A stretch of 64,000 bases of DNA from Candidatus Poribacteria bacterium (GTDB lineage Bacteria; Poribacteria; WGA-4E; WGA-3G). The notes beneath the pieces were generated by a model. That model did not search any database, had not been told where the DNA came from, and saw only the letters and a list, made by a program, of their open reading frames with translations. Below, piece after piece: positions 54,996 through 64,000 of the stretch (within the stretch, counting starts at the first letter, position 1; each line of letters starts with the position of its first letter). The stretch lies in NCBI GenBank assembly GCA_003635315.1, contig PYJD01000034.1, positions 62,001-126,000 on the forward strand, read 5' to 3'. Both the position numbers and the translations under genes were made by a program.

Positions 54996-55856
54996 TTATA
55001 ACTTGGAGAGTTGTTCCAGGATTTGTTCGCGGGAGGGACGGTCAGTATTTCGTTTGCCGACATAAAGCCATTTTAAATTGCCTTCTTTATCCACTAAGAA
55101 TGTCGCAGGTAGATACATGTCTCGTCTATGGAAGCGATAAGGTTTGATAAGACCGAAGGCTTCATGAACAGAAGATCCTGGATCAGCAAGTATGGGAATA
55201 TCCATAGTTACAGGATCTTTAAATGTCTTTACAATTGCATGGGGTTCTGGTTTAATCATTAGAATAACAGTATCGTATTCTTCGTCAAATAGTTGCTTAT
55301 CTGTCGCAAACTGCGACGTGTAGTTTGCACATACCGGTCAGTAGGTTTGGAGGAGTAGGTTAACAAGTACGTTCTTTTTATTTCTGTAATCGGATAGAGC
55401 ATATTCTGTTTTTGCATCAGTATCTGTTAATCTAAAATCTGGGACAGGTGAATCAATAGATAATGGCGTACTTCTTTTGAGTTTGCCAAGTTCTGTCAGT
55501 AGATCTTGTGCCTTGAAATCTAAGGTTTGATATAAGTATTTCCAACGGACATATCCAGACTTATCCACAATTACCATACCAAAATCATTACTCTCTGGTT
55601 GGAGTCTCCACACAATCGTGGTATCATATTTCTTACTAAATTGTTTTGTAATCTCCTTCGATTCTTTCAATTCAGGTGAATATATTACAAGTATATTCAC
55701 TTTCCCATAATATTTCTCGGAATATTGAATATCATTAGCCAGATCCGAAGAAAACAGGCGTGTACCGATTTTCACTGCATGTACGATTGATGAAGAACAC
55801 AGACTTAGAATTATAACGAAGAAAAATGTAATCACATACCTATGAATGTGTACCAT
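54996..55856 (-). CDS. Redoxin-domain selenoprotein (TGA read as Sec)
   Basis: A single frame of 286 residues with one in-frame TGA (55340-55338) at residue 173. Signal peptide 1-26 (ITFFFVIILSLCSS). Residues 30-140 form a first thioredoxin-like domain without cysteines; residues 150-286 are an AhpC-TSA/redoxin domain: FRLTDTDAKTEYALSDYRN, VLVNLLLQTY-[TGA]-PVC, then DIPILADPGSSVHEAFGLI and ATFLVDKEGNLKW. The TGA sits exactly at the first Cys of a CxxC site, giving U-P-V-C. A hairpin with loop G follows (55306-55328). Read as two genes it would be a broken redoxin; one codon being decayed exactly there is unlikely. Confidence 0.82.
55306..55328 (-). promoter_or_regulatory. Candidate bacterial SECIS hairpin
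   Basis: On the coding (minus) strand, 10-16 nt after the TGA: GCAAACT, a 9-nt loop ACACGTCGC, then AGTTTGC, a perfect 7-bp stem. Loop Gs lie 21 and 24 nt after TGA, in the range used by SelB-dependent SECIS elements. Confidence 0.6.
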
Positions 55857-55877
55857 AAATATAGAACTCCTTAGGAA

Positions 55878-58807: not shown

Positions 58808-59020
58808 TTATTCTCTAATTATATACTTCCCAAAAAAGTACGGAATTGGAAGATTGGAAGGGTGGAACTGTGGATGATGGGTTCCATTCTTCCTTAAAGA
58901 GACATTTGCATTTAAACATTGCACATTATTAATTACTTTATCGTTAATTTATTTTGGTTATTAATCTTCTTTCAAGTGTTTCGGTTCGGTAATTTAAAAA
59001 GCGTCGAAAAACGGAAAATG

Positions 59021-59293
59021 TTACACTTTTTGACACATTGTGTGACATTGAATTCCGATATAATTATGGCTTTCAGACCAGTACTGTACTGGGTTTACTG
59101 CCTTAAATATATGAAAAAGTAAAATTTCTAATTTTCTCATTTTTGTGTTATTTCTGTTTAGTGTTAAAATTTCACATTTGTTAATATATTGATTCATTTT
59201 TATTTCCACACTTTGTATCCTCCATCTTGCTTCAGTGGAGGGTGGTGTAGTTGAAGTTTCTTTTATTTTCTTTATATAGTCTGTAAGTTTCAT
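59021..59293 (-). CDS. Small ORF3 of the repeated element
   Basis: 90 codons starting ATG at 59293 (MKLTDYIKKIKETSTTPPS), with AAGGTGG 8 bp upstream as good ribosome binding site. Ends CHTMCQKV. The copy at 25254 is truncated after about 49 codons. No family recognised. Confidence 0.45.
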   Translation of the reverse strand: MKLTDYIKKIKETSTTPPSTEARWRIQSVEIKMNQYINKCEILTLNRNNTKMRKLEILLFHIFKAVNPVQYWSESHNYIGIQCHTMCQKV

Positions 59294-59313
59294 TTTTATA
59301 TCCACCTTAAGTG

Positions 59314-59433
59314 TCAATTTAGTGATTTGATATCCTCGTTTTTTAGTTTTTCAAGTTTTTTTAGTCGGTTTTTATAATCTCTGATTTCGAAGTGCCTTGA
59401 AGTAAGTCTGGTTCTGTGTTCATAGCGTGTCAT
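59314..59433 (-). CDS. Small ORF2 of the repeated element
   Basis: 39 codons, MTRYEHRTRLTSRHFEIRDY followed by a lysine/leucine-rich helix LKKLEKLKNEDIKSLN; its start overlaps the end of ORF1. Possible coiled coil. The copy at 25114 has a stop. Confidence 0.35.
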   Translation of the reverse strand: MTRYEHRTRLTSRHFEIRDYKNRLKKLEKLKNEDIKSLN

Positions 59434-59575
59434 TACAAACAGGTGATTTTTTAATAATTTGAAAAACTTGAAAACTGTGTTTTCTGGTCAATCTGCTATA
59501 AACCGAATACGGTAAAGGGATTGTATAGAATTGTCTTATATTTATCATTTCAGATTTAGATTTATAATTTATCAT
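59420..59575 (-). CDS. Small ORF1 of the repeated element
   Basis: 51 codons, beginning MINYKSKSEMINIRQFY, ending SPVCNDTL; intact in both element copies. Confidence 0.4.
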   Translation of the reverse strand: MINYKSKSEMINIRQFYTIPLPYSVYSRLTRKHSFQVFQIIKKSPVCNDTL

Positions 59576-59755
59576 AACATAATAAACCTTTGTTTTTTAG
59601 GTATCCTATTATATGTAAGATTATTTTAACATATACATAATGTGTTTGCAACCTTATTTTTCACGTATGTGACTTTAGATGTTAGTGTATAGATTTTTCT
59701 TCAATAATTTTTTGTTTAATTGGAGATATTTGATTTTAAGGGAAAATTTGTGTAT

Positions 59756-60084
59756 TTTTGTCTGAATTATGGATTACGCGGGGAAGAGGAATTGAGGTAA
59801 GGTGAATGGTTTTGTGGAAGGATGGTTTCTTGTTTGTCTGAATCACGGATTACGCGGATTACGCGGAATACGCGGATAAGAGGTGTTTTGTGTGATAATG
59901 TTTCTTTGGTATTCCATATACCTTATCTCGTATACAAAGATATCTATCCTACAGAGGGGAGTATAATCGCGATTCGGAAATCGAATCAACGGTATGAATG
60001 CCTTATTGGCATTCCCCACCTACAGAGGAGAGTATAATCGCATATAATCAATATGAGCGATTATTAGTTTTTAGGATTGTATTA
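59756..60084. other. Spacer with hairpin repeat
   Basis: No gene recognised. Contains AATCAACGGTATGAATGCC-TTATT-GGCATTC (59986-60012), an inverted GTTGATT hairpin, and two copies of CTACAGAGG-GGAGTATAATCGC (59951 and 60021 regions). Also a run of GGATTACGCGGATTACGCGG-like repeats at 59845-59876. Confidence 0.5.
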
Positions 60085-60918
60085 TCAGTTCATTTTTGCG
60101 ATTATTCTTCGGAGTATTCTAATATTCTCAATGACATTCTCTTCGCTATTTGGACTGTCTATACCATTTAGATAGGTTTCAAAGGCATCTAAAGCTTCAT
60201 TATAATCGCCAACTTGATAGAACAGGTTGCCGAGTCGACGGTATGGTGTCATATATTGTGGAGTTAGCCATGTAATCCGTTTTAAGGCTTGTATTGCCTT
60301 ATCATACTCGTTATCATCTGTATATATGCGTGCGAGATTGCGTAAAATCCGTGCTAAGGTTTCTTTATTGGCATCCTCATTTAGGAATCGACGTTGGAGA
60401 CCTGCTTCTTCACCGAATACAAGTTCTAACTTCTCTTGAAATGCCTCTTCAGACATAATATTGCCTTCGTCGCCTAAGTCCAAGAAAATATCAAAATGTT
60501 TGAATTTGTACCGGACAATACAATAAGATGGTAAGTTTATAGCAGAAAGGGGTAAACCAGCTTTCCTGCCAATTTCTATATAGAGAATATAGAGGGTTAC
60601 ATCAATCCCTATTTTTCTATCAATAACATCGTTGAGGAAATTATTTGCAGGATCATAAAAGCCGATGACTTCTCTTCTGAACCTATTTTCATCAAAGAAA
60701 TACCGATTGTATTCAGCGATCTGCTCGTGAGGTAAAGCAATTTCAGATATTCTCTCTCTAACCTCTTGAGCCATCTCGTCTAATTTATGAATGTAATTGT
60801 CTATATCGACCTCGGGATATTCACTTTTGGCAATAAGTAGTGCCCCGATTGCGAGTCCGACCTCACTATCGGGTTGATCTGCGAAATTAAAAAAGATATC
60901 AGGTTCGCTTTTATCCAT
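60085..60918 (-). CDS. SirB1-family transglutaminase-like / TPR protein
   Basis: 277 residues. N-terminal helical transglutaminase-like domain of the SirB1 type: GLAIGALLIAKSEYPEVDIDNYIHKLDEMA, FFDENRFRREVIGFYDPANNFLNDVIDRKIG, and LPLSAINLPSYCIVRYKF. C-terminal TPRs: LARIYTDDNEYDKAIQALKRITWL and LGNLFYQVGDYNEALDAFETYL. SirB1 proteins lack proven enzyme activity. It is followed downstream by no gene on its strand; a tRNA gene lies divergently. Confidence 0.83.
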   Translation of the reverse strand: MDKSEPDIFFNFADQPDSEVGLAIGALLIAKSEYPEVDIDNYIHKLDEMAQEVRERISEIALPHEQIAEYNRYFFDENRFRREVIGFYDPANNFLNDVIDRKIGIDVTLYILYIEIGRKAGLPLSAINLPSYCIVRYKFKHFDIFLDLGDEGNIMSEEAFQEKLELVFGEEAGLQRRFLNEDANKETLARILRNLARIYTDDNEYDKAIQALKRITWLTPQYMTPYRRLGNLFYQVGDYNEALDAFETYLNGIDSPNSEENVIENIRILRRIIAKMN

Positions 60919-60986
60919 CTTATTTGAAGTCCTAAAATTATTTGCTTTTTTAGCAGGGATATGTTATTATTAAATTGTTCTTATGT

Positions 60987-61059
<73 letters not shown>

Positions 61060-61064
61060 TCATT

Positions 61065-61565
61065 TTATTTTAATATATTAGACAGTGGTTGTTCAACAGA
61101 AGTTGAATTATCGCTGTTTTTTTGTTCGACTTTTTTATTTGTCTGTGTTCTTGTCGTTCTACGCGGTAGACCATTATCTAAAATACCGAATACCGTCAGG
61201 TGAAGTTGTGCGCGAGGTGATAGGTGTTTAATGAGTGTTTCCTCAGCTTTATCAATCTTATCCTGCATCTCTTTTCGTTTTGAGCGTACCTTCTCCAGTG
61301 TTTCCTTAATCTCTTTCTCGCTCATGAGTGTATCTTTAACATACCGGTTTAAAGTCTTCAAATCTTCAACAGCTTGTCTATGCTTTTGTAGTTTTAGTTT
61401 CCACATAGCATCTATTTGAGATTTCTGCTCTGGTGTTACGCCAATCTCAGCCAAAGAGATCCTTCCTTGTTGGGTTTCACTGTTCTTTTGTGCCCATGCA
61501 AAGATGCTACATAAGGCGATGCACCCCAAAATCGGTATAAGGTATATATTACGTTTTTTCATCAT
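61065..61565 (-). CDS. Spy/CpxP-like periplasmic protein
   Basis: Start at 61565 or the next ATG (MMKKRNIYLIP) follows GGAGGGAGT and a signal peptide (hydrophobic IPILGCIALCSIFAWA). About 166 residues. Mature part is highly helical and charged: LAEIGVTPEQKSQIDAMWKLKL, then EKEIKETLEKVRSKRKEMQDKI, the LTPEQ-x-LxxIxxxW pattern resembling the Spy chaperone / LTXXQ family, though the second LTxxQ is replaced. Possible periplasmic chaperone or metal sensor. Ends against the tRNA gene. Confidence 0.65.
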   Translation of the reverse strand: MMKKRNIYLIPILGCIALCSIFAWAQKNSETQQGRISLAEIGVTPEQKSQIDAMWKLKLQKHRQAVEDLKTLNRYVKDTLMSEKEIKETLEKVRSKRKEMQDKIDKAEETLIKHLSPRAQLHLTVFGILDNGLPRRTTRTQTNKKVEQKNSDNSTSVEQPLSNILK

Positions 61566-61648
61566 AACTCCCTCCTGTCTAAAGGATACCATAACTAAGG
61601 AAAAATTTCTACTTACGGGTATGTCCCGTTAGGGTTATTTAGTTTTAC

Positions 61649-61835
61649 TATAGTTTGGACAATTTTCGTATATTCTTTAACAATTGTATACATACACCTT
61701 TCGCACCGCTGGTGCTCGGTTACTGGTGGCATTTACGTTTCTACACACCTTCCGCACCGCTGGTGCTGCCGATGTGGTCAATAGTAAACTTTTTCGTCAA
61801 GTTTAGGTTGTGGCTTAACTCATCAATTAATCAGT
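61649..61835. repeat. Repeat block, inverted copy of 39124-39318
   Basis: Starts ACTATAGTTTGGACAATTTT, contains two CGCACCGCTGGTG motifs and GTTGTGGCTTAACTCATCAA, the reverse complement of the block at 39124. Confidence 0.75.
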
Positions 61836-61918
61836 TTTTATCAAAGAATAGTCTGATAAGTGCTATTTATAGTGAACTTTAGAATTAATTGAACACATCT
61901 ATTAAAGGATCTCTGCAT

Positions 61919-62262
61919 GCACAATCTAACAGAATGTGCTACAACACACAATCTAACAGAATGTGCTACAAAACACACAATCTAAAAGAATGTGCTACAA
62001 AACACACAATCTAAAAGAATGTGCTACAAAACACACAATCTAACAGAATGTGCTACAAAACGCACAATCTAACAGAATGTGCTACAATGCGCACAATCTA
62101 ACAGAATGTGCTACAATGCGCACAATCTAACAGAATGTGCTACAAAACACACAATCTAACAGAATGTGCTACAAAACACAATCTAACAGAATGTGCTACA
62201 ATGCGCACAATCTAACAGAATGTGCTACAATGCGCACAATCTAACAGAATGTCTATTATTAG
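61919..62262 (-). repeat. 12-copy tandem array, inverted relative to 10080-10362
   Basis: Twelve units of 26-30 bp containing CACAATCTAACAGAATGTGC and TACAAAAC or TACAATG between; two units have AATCTAAAAGAATG. The right flank CTATTATTAGTGAAGGTATT matches, on the other strand, the left end of the element at 10058, but no matching second end was found upstream. So this copy is truncated or diverged. Confidence 0.85.
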
Positions 62263-62530
62263 TGAAGGTATTGAAAGCACATAGATGTAGTTTTGAATTC
62301 TGAATTCAGATTCGTTCTTAAACGTATAGTAACCTATTCTTCTACGATGTAGTTACGTATCATTATCTTTATAGTTTAATTGAATTTATAAAGACATTTT
62401 ATTCGGTTAAAGAACTATAGTCTATATAAACTCTCCTTGCGAGTTTAATGATATGATCGTGGTAAGCAGATTGCCAAATCGGACCGCTACTCCCCAAACA
62501 TGCATTAATCTGTTTCACCGGGTTGCTATT
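62263..62530. other. Spacer, nothing recognised
   Basis: AT-rich spacer between the tandem array and the promoter of the thioredoxin-TPR gene. No gene, tRNA or clear site was found. Confidence 0.4.
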
Positions 62531-62560
62531 TTGGACAATCTAACTAAAATATGATATTAT
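62531..62560 (+). promoter_or_regulatory. Possible promoter of the thioredoxin-TPR selenoprotein
   Basis: TTGGAC and TATTAT with 18 bp between, about 93 bp before the ATG at 62654. Weak match. Confidence 0.35.
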
Positions 62561-62653
62561 TTTGATAATTACAGAAACAATACCGATTTGCGTCTCTATT
62601 CAAACCGTTTAGGAGATACTTTGATTTGTAGTCCTACAATAAGGAGAAAATTA

Positions 62654-63859
62654 ATGGCACAAGAAGCGGAAAAAGCCGAGGTCAAATGGGGAACGTCTAT
62701 TGAAGAGGCAATGAAACAATCTGCTGAAACCGGTAAACCAATGATGATGGACTTCTATACAGATTCGTGATACTGGTGTAAGCGGCTGGATGCCGACACC
62801 TATACCAACGCAGATGTTATCACCCTTTCTGAAAAGTTTATTCCAGTCAAAGTTAATCCACAAAATAAAGAACAACCCATCAACGCAGAAACAAACGACA
62901 AGTTTGGCGTTAGTTTTTATCCTACTACCCTTTTTGTAAGTCCGGATGGTGGTCTCATTTCGGAACACCTTAGTGGTTACGCGCCACCTGAGAAATTCTT
63001 ACCTGTGATGCAAGAAATATTGAAAAAAGAGAAGACATTTCAGGAGAAATTAACAGAATTGAAGAAAGCACCTGATGATGTTAAACTGAAGCGTGAAATC
63101 GCAATTCTCTATGTCCAACGCCACCAAATTGTGAAAGCAGAACCGATTCTTGAAATGATGTCTGATGATATAGATCTGAACCGAGAATTCGGTATCTTCT
63201 ATCTCAGTAAGAATGAAATTGAAAAGGCACTTAAAATAAGTGAAATGATGCCTGACGATGTGAAGCTAAATTACGAATTTGCAGTGACGTATCTGGAGCA
63301 AGAACAGATTGAGAAGGCACTTCCATATAGTCAAAAGGTCTTAGATAAAGATCCTGAAAATACGATGGGATTACTTCCTAATCTACACTTGGAAATCGGA
63401 TCTTCTTACGCAAGTATGATTCCGGGTAGTTCGGGAAAAGTCAGAGACAGATATGTGAAAAATGCTGTTAAGCACCTCCAAAGTGTCATTGAAAATTACT
63501 CGGATAGCAATGTCTTTGAATCTGCACAATATAATCTGGGTGTTACGTATTCACTGACAGGTGATTTTGACAAGTCAATTGAAGTACTTGAAAAGTTGAT
63601 GAATCACGCCACTGATCAAGTGATAAAGGAGACTCTACCAAATGAGATAATAGAGGTTAAACAGTTGGCTGCGTTTAAAGCTGCACAAGATTATGTGGGT
63701 GTTACGTTTTCAGCCATTACACAGGATTTTGAAAAATCAATTGAAGTACTTGAAAATTGGATGAATCGTTACAACACTGATGAACGGATAAAGCAGGCTG
63801 TACAGAAAGAATTCAGAAAGATCAGAGAGTTAGCTGCGGAAGTAGAAACGAGTGAATAG
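62654..63859 (+). CDS. Thioredoxin-fold / TPR selenoprotein (TGA read as Sec)
   Basis: Start at 62654 (MAQEAEKAEVKW) with AAGGAG at 62641-62646. One in-frame TGA at residue 39 (62768-62770); otherwise open to 63859 (401 residues). N-terminal thioredoxin_7-like domain: KPMMMDFYTDS-[TGA]-YWCKRLDADTY, KFIPVKVN, V-S-F-Y-P-T-T-L-F (cis-Pro). The TGA replaces the first Cys of the WCxxC site, giving U-Y-W-C. C-terminal TPR units follow (LNREFGIFYLSKNEIEKAL, LNYEFAVTYLEQEQIEKAL, AQYNLGVTYSLTGDFDKSI). A hairpin is present at 62775-62800. No signal peptide. Confidence 0.85.
62775..62800 (+). promoter_or_regulatory. Candidate bacterial SECIS hairpin
   Basis: GGTGT (62775-62779) pairs with ACACC (62796-62800); above a small AAG bulge, CGGC (62783-62786) pairs with GCCG (62792-62795), leaving loop TGGAT. 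Loop Gs lie 18 and 19 nt after TGA, close to the E. coli fdhF geometry. Confidence 0.65.
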
Positions 63860-64000
63860 GAGGAACGCCGACATTGCTACGCTATGTCGGATTATTATCG
63901 AATTAATACATTAATCTTCATATGAACTCAAGATGGTATATACACTTTTGCTATAAACATTCCGTCCCTACCAAATCAACGCCAAATGCACATTTGGCAT
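63860..64000. repeat. Terminal spacer with hairpins
   Basis: Contains GCCGACAT...ATGTCGG hairpin (63867-63892), an ATTAATCTTCAT end of family B type (63910-63921), and at the edge AATCAACGCCAAATG-CA-CATTTGGC (63974-63998), an inverted GTTGATT hairpin. Confidence 0.55.

Follow-up and report, generated by a model that had tools for sequence, protein, structure and literature searches.

Two open reading frames close to the right-hand end of the window (the whole stretch of DNA analysed, 64,000 nucleotides of a Candidatus Poribacteria bacterium contig) run in the same phase and are joined by a single TGA, and the locus raises the question of whether this codon is read as selenocysteine (Sec) and, if so, what the resulting protein does. 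The source assembly, of 50 contigs totalling 4.33 Mb, has a completeness of 90.2%. Sponge symbiosis is common among the Poribacteria, being found in many members.

Translation across the TGA at 62768-62770 gives FYTDS-U-YWCKRLDADTY, and the TGA falls at the first catalytic cysteine position of a Thioredoxin_7-type domain, both as an earlier note on the sequence had claimed. Downstream of the TGA no stop interrupts the frame between 62771 and the TAG at 63857-63859, and position 63005 is merely the first start codon within it. The open reading frame 62588-62770 is likewise a mechanical one only, and the gene likely starts at ATG 62654, judging from the sequence, in agreement with the extent of 62654-63859 given earlier. 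AAGGAG or AAGGGG also precedes the start codon of the five other copies of the family that, like this one, have no signal peptide. The features of the locus are as follows.

62654..63859, forward strand: gene read as a selenoprotein, 401 residues with one selenocysteine, Thioredoxin_7-type domain and TPR repeats, signal peptide absent.
62641..62646, forward strand: Shine-Dalgarno-like AAGGAG, 7 nt ahead of ATG 62654, assigned from sequence.
62687..62944, forward strand: thioredoxin domain, Pfam Thioredoxin_7 (PF13899), 46.2 bits against a cut-off of 27.
62768..62770, forward strand: TGA as selenocysteine codon, residue 39, first position of U-Y-W-C; TGA in 78/78 copies.
62777..62779, forward strand: resolving cysteine, residue 42, of the U-x-x-C motif; sole Cys codon in the gene.
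62774..62807, forward strand: SECIS hairpin, lower stem 62774-62780 / 62801-62807.
62783..62795, forward strand: SECIS apical stem-loop CGGC-UGGAU-GCCG, loop 62787-62791, 16 nt from TGA to loop.
63080..63856, forward strand: helical repeats of TPR type, with helices predicted from residue 143 onward.
62529..63861, forward strand: block common to the window and the signal-less copy of genome G032 (L003) by blastn; the match stops at 63848 in L004-L006.

Several TPR models scored above cut-off in the same frame as Thioredoxin_7 in the read-through protein, and the thioredoxin and TPR parts are conserved together in one frame across the family; the possibility raised earlier, that the N-terminal part is unrelated to the TPR part, did not materialise. 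An annotation that terminates at TGA would cut this gene in two.

The genome encodes the complete gene set expected of a bacterium that makes selenoproteins, and all of selABD and tRNA-Sec, which the earlier note had named as the genes to look for, are present. SelA (518.2 bits) and SelB (368.5 bits) were over their cut-offs, SelD (365.5 bits) has its own in-frame TGA within KCAGUASKL, and a tRNA-Sec (76.5 bits, anticodon TCA by ARAGORN) lies 36 bases from the selB match. As a control, the same searches in 14 named genomes gave SelA over cut-off in 2, SelB in 2, SelD in 2 and tRNA-Sec in 5. Within the phylum Poribacteria SelB exceeded its cut-off in 75 of 84 genomes. In one sponge, SelA is found together with SelB in most of the symbiont bins, according to the available text of PMC5649159.

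Other genes of the same genome also carry in-frame TGA codons. Among 22 AhpC-TSA matches, seven contain one TGA, each at the peroxidatic position by eye (L126, L127, L130-L133 and window 55067-55453). The last of these is the case that had been reported first in the window, and it looks real: a peroxiredoxin-type AhpC-TSA gene at 54996-55877 on the reverse strand, with TGA at 55338-55340 and U-P-V-C at the apparent peroxidatic position. A formate dehydrogenase-type protein (L139, G000:C18) has the motif CSRAUHAPT, which we take to be a classical Sec site. Five family searches gave at least 11 Sec candidates in this genome, SelD and both copies of the Sec-thioredoxin-TPR gene included, and the genome may therefore be selenoprotein-rich.

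The distribution of the gene was determined with a family profile built from 15 copies and searched in 84 genomes of the phylum, of which 74 matched at 1e-15. We analysed the 78 copies that cover the Sec site, which come from 72 of the 84 genomes; left out were contig-edge matches without the Sec column (G030:C293, G074:C55 and G061:C53, of which the last is apparently the C-terminal half of a copy already included), matches that are second halves of copies already included, and matches of Cys type, whose frames measure about 590-800 aa. The gene was found in 71/72 genomes of the window's order and in 1/12 other genomes of the phylum. A second search at a laxer threshold in 13 genomes, including the 12 without a copy, revealed no more family copies among the matches listed, and G039, of the same genus and 95% complete, has none. 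Nine of the 12 genomes without the gene have SelB over cut-off, and Sec use therefore does not require it. Conversely, SelB over cut-off is missing in 6 of the 72 gene-bearing genomes, which are 73-83% complete. The relatives in named genomes (n=15) comprised 14 Poribacteria MAGs and one LCP-89 genome.

At the Sec site the codon is TGA in all 78 copies and Cys in none, with Cys at +3 in every copy; the motifs were UGFC (27), UGWC (22), UGAC (9), UGSC (6), UGYC (4), UYWC (3) and others (7). In the comparison with Cys homologues that had been suggested, TGT or TGC stood at this site in all four distant relatives examined, three from the phylum (L117-L119) and one from LCP-89. An in-frame UGA where homologues have UGA or Cys, the pattern by which a selenoprotein is recognised, is thus what the family displays. 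The best-scoring Cys relative among the matches listed (111 bits) is L117 (G018:C6:52500-55500), whose 799-aa frame includes a similar thioredoxin domain in which TGC takes the place of the Sec codon. Another locus, L115 (G027:C50:2900-3800), encodes a short Sec thioredoxin, possibly a lipoprotein that lacks TPR, with the lipobox-like N-terminus LLSSGC, 68 residues from Sec to its TGA and two Cys further on.

Immediately 3' of the TGA, a two-part hairpin had been described earlier, and such a hairpin is present. Its lower stem as noted then (GGTGT/ACACC, from the fifth nucleotide after the TGA) folds in some copies, and the slightly different pairing 62774-62780/62801-62807 is better kept across the family. 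The window hairpin has a 5-nt loop, UGGAU, with G second, above a 4-bp stem, lies 16 nt from the UGA and folds at -13.9 kcal/mol. All four values fall within the bacterial SECIS model as given in the available text of PMC13188914 (loop of 3-9 nt with G in the first two positions, upper stem of 4-16 bp, 16-37 nt from the UGA, at most -7.5 kcal/mol). With one mismatch allowed, 0.01 occurrences of the 13-base stem-loop are expected in the window, where it is found once. Taken by itself, the fold energy is weak support: z is -2.74 when 38 nt are trimmed to the hairpin and -0.71 for a looser stretch of 57 nt; given the latter value, we relied on comparison between copies instead.

Silent sites are nearly frozen at codons +5 to +8 (77 distinct sequences), where CGG, CTG, GAT and GCC make up 0.99, 1.00, 0.96 and 0.90, respectively, of the cases with that residue; at the other 37 conserved positions the fraction of the commonest codon ranged from 0.29 to 0.93, and was 0.38 for Leu at +19. 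Across the family 97.4% of cells in the apical stem CGGC/GCCG are paired. Furthermore, one pair is compensated: A-U stands for G-C in seven copies, where Gln CAG replaces Arg CGG and Ala GCT replaces GCC. None of 500 shuffles reached seven, a figure that does not give a probability when the sequences shuffled are related, and the seven copies may represent one event because they are related. With the lower stem (columns 16-22 / 43-49) 79.9% of cells are paired and the covariation score is 0.177; after sliding, these values are at most 44.7% and 0.086, respectively, and shuffles give a score of 0.138. An alternative lower stem (columns 17-21 / 38-42) was rejected as weaker, its helix being 62.1% paired against 69.9%. 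Two of five covariation measures were not above shuffles (pairs with two-sided change, 294/500; pair types, 500/500), and RNAalifold on the 78 copies gave 3 pairs only. When seven sequences were folded singly, three (L010, L113 and L116) lacked the 4-bp stem, with L113 at -7.0 kcal/mol, and Rfam models run over the window at their gathering thresholds matched only a tRNA. The search for a SECIS that had been proposed yielded a SECIS-like hairpin that is constrained at silent sites and in which one pair is compensated. Together with the Sec genes, the Cys relatives and the invariant TGA, it strongly supports selenocysteine use; the observation is confirmed, and the gene is read as a selenoprotein.

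A hydrophobic, signal-peptide-like N-terminal segment, called by hydrophobicity from a script-chosen start, is present in 72 of the 78 copies and absent in six, including the window copy. The earlier note did not show that the genome holds two copies, a signal-less paralogue in the window and a second one with a signal peptide. The six signal-less copies form one clade (FastTree support 1.0), whose neighbours in the tree are the signal-bearing copies from G041 and G032. Five of them begin MAQ(E/K)A(E/G)KA(Q/E)VKW, compared with MFNSVF...AMPAIAQDTPEAEKAQVKW in L007, as if the signal peptide alone had gone, and the sixth starts MFQKAEKAQVKW. In G032 and G030 the signal-less copy sits directly upstream of a copy with a signal-bearing start, and the signal-less form probably arose at this tandem. 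Both forms are seen in tandem at L003 5052-7803 (G032) and, as far as the contig reaches, at L046 (G030).

The gene order in L012, where eight flanking ORFs were scanned, is yidC-jag-mnmE-[gene]-rsuA type-HAD-pdxJ; mnmE and the rsuA-type gene also adjoin the second copy of the window's own genome, and ORF sizes suggest the same neighbourhood in L003, L009, L010 and L013. These neighbours look like housekeeping genes and hold no pointer to function. Around the window copy, blastn of 59001-64000 outside the shared block gave just 28-91-base matches and copies of the gene's own parts. A repeated sequence, aatgcgcacaatctaacagaatgt, lies at 62200-62260, about 270 bases upstream of the shared block, and just past the right end of the window (L037 8746-12595) are three adjacent genes whose translations, by eye, resemble subunits of a molybdenum enzyme of the xanthine dehydrogenase/CO dehydrogenase type.

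Rates of substitution were compared between the two forms. The 15 pairs of signal-less copies gave dS values of 0.09-0.22, the signal-bearing copies of the same genomes 0.83-2.03 (10 of 15 pairs, the G030 copy being cut), and between G000 and G032 both mnmE and the rsuA-type gene are saturated or close to it. Apparently the signal-less clade has spread horizontally, and recently, between Poribacteria species. Beyond the TGA, omega in the signal-bearing copies was 0.14 for the thioredoxin part and 0.18 for the TPR part (29 pairs, overall dS 0.08-0.4), indicative of purifying selection. In the signal-less clade the corresponding values were 0.24-0.32 and 0.81; the latter could mean relaxed or diversifying selection, with the low TPR dS (0.117) contributing to it and recombination among repeats perhaps also playing in. 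Motif Cys alone was found in 73/78 proteins, counted from 25 residues before the motif to the end. Four of the six signal-less copies have Cys residues in the TPR part, and among the other 72 only the short L115 has a Cys outside the motif in the stretch counted; this is as expected if the six left an oxidising compartment.

Both marks of a thioredoxin-fold oxidoreductase, a CxxC-type motif and the cis-Pro position, were found, the former as U-x-x-C in 78/78 copies and the latter as Pro90, which is invariant in 15/15 aligned copies and which by its position we take to be the site of the thioredoxin cis-Pro. An AlphaFold2 model (mean pLDDT 78.6) has a thioredoxin-like half, of lower confidence, and a long helical-repeat arm. 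The best explanation as a whole, to which we give a probability of about 0.7, is a thiol-disulfide reductase that uses Sec and has a TPR arm for binding clients, cytosolic in the case of the window copy. SelB with Sec-tRNA(UCA) would bind the hairpin just 3' of the UGA, and selenocysteine would be inserted at the attacking position of the U-x-x-C motif. Since Sec39 and Cys42 are the only such redox residues, the chemistry should run via a selenenylsulfide between them, and the C-terminal TPR superhelix, to judge from the domains and predicted fold, would hold client proteins. Most members of the family carry a signal peptide and should be exported. The window copy, from the clade that lost this signal and would have moved between species, should act in the cytosol. 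If the protein works in this manner, selenium would serve protein quality control in these bacteria.

A more specific proposal is that the TPR arm is a holdase which passes clients to GroEL/DnaK in oxidative stress, as in CnoX. Foldseek ranked E. coli YbbN/CnoX (3qou) and its Salmonella relative (3qdn) first among solved structures by E-value, followed by IFIT1 and consensus TPR proteins, with DsbD C-terminal domains further down. TM-scores to YbbN are low (0.18/0.25, rmsd 21.7), and the match therefore concerns domain order, not placement. In domain order, an N-terminal thioredoxin then C-terminal TPR, the window protein resembles the CnoX/YbbN chaperedoxins with a redox-active motif, and it shares with them the lack of a signal peptide; by this analogy holdase activity is possible. 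Moreover, the CnoX of Caulobacter, which carries a CXXC motif, functions as an oxidoreductase (PMC8129009, available text). However, CnoX/YbbN has a classical thioredoxin with SXXC/CXXC, whereas the thioredoxin half here is of Thioredoxin_7/DsbD type with a selenocysteine U-x-x-C, and the window protein has no second Cys to match Cys63 of E. coli CnoX. We take the family content of CnoX/YbbN to be a PF00085 thioredoxin half with TPR_20 at the C-terminus; the window protein scores below cut-off for both (21.9 vs 23.5 and 22.8 vs 25 bits) and for this reason is not placed in CnoX, while the genome's other copy passes PF00085 at 33.7. The signal peptide of 72/78 copies is a further difference, and those copies would not meet GroEL. 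We therefore regard a holdase of this kind as a tentative reading that the evidence somewhat disfavours. The same doubtful standing applies to the history that would go with it, in which an exported, order-wide selenocysteine chaperedoxin gave rise, through tandem duplication and loss of the signal peptide alone, to a cytosolic paralogue that spread horizontally, its arm diversifying (omega near 0.8) and its Sec site fixed.

It is unlikely that the signal-less copy is merely a decaying duplicate, with function residing in the signal-bearing copy only. Loss of the export signal and the TPR omega of 0.81 in the six copies are what such decay could produce, but all six frames are open for 362-376 codons past the TGA, and omega in their thioredoxin part is still 0.24-0.32. 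Each of the six retains the TGA, the Cys and the apical stem, apart from the outermost pair in L044, and the gene has been kept at different sites in different genomes. For the reductase with a client-binding arm, the presence of both copies in one genome and a naturally compensated hairpin allow a direct test of what Sec in place of Cys, the compartment and the SECIS each contribute.

We reject as hardly credible that the TGA truly ends translation, stems from a sequencing error or marks a pseudogene, a view that has the stop codon itself and nothing more in its favour against TGA in 78/78 copies from 72 genomes, the Sec gene set and the constrained hairpin, and equally that UGA encodes another amino acid genome-wide, for although several genes of the genome contain TGA, those inspected sit by eye at catalytic Cys/Sec positions (7/7 AhpC-TSA, CSRAUHAPT and SelD), the TCA tRNA is the tRNA-Sec beside selB, and TGA is the terminal stop in family members of related genomes (e.g. 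L056, L063 and L092).

With regard to other known systems, the nearest NCBIfam models for the thioredoxin half include DsbD (NF001419), at 41 bits against a cut-off of 330, and the rhodanese-DsbD-like selenoprotein TsoB (NF045694), at 59.5 against 805; only the last part of either model is matched, and the window protein has the TPR arm instead. The Trx7/PDZ domain-containing selenoprotein (NF041199) by its name likewise combines a Thioredoxin_7-type Sec domain with a protein-binding domain, but the window protein scores 26.8 bits against a cut-off of 300, and the motif tabulated in the available text of PMC13188914 is CxxU, compared with UxxC here. UxxC is also the motif of the thioredoxin-like selenoproteins Trx-like 1, 2 and 3 from marine metagenomes (PMC2398784, available text), which were compared by description only; no TPR fusion is among the fusions named in that text. 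In the open-access literature no Poribacteria selenoprotein or Sec-thioredoxin-TPR fusion was found among the matches listed; the available text of PMC13188914 contains none of 'tetratricopeptide', 'Poribacteri' or 'sponge', and PMC12013277 does not contain 'Poribacteri'. Thioredoxin-like selenoproteins as such are already known. New against the literature searched is a Sec thioredoxin in the chaperedoxin domain order, in a family that extends through an order (71/72 genomes), has TGA in all 78 copies and thus Sec in every copy examined, and exists in signal-bearing and signal-less forms.
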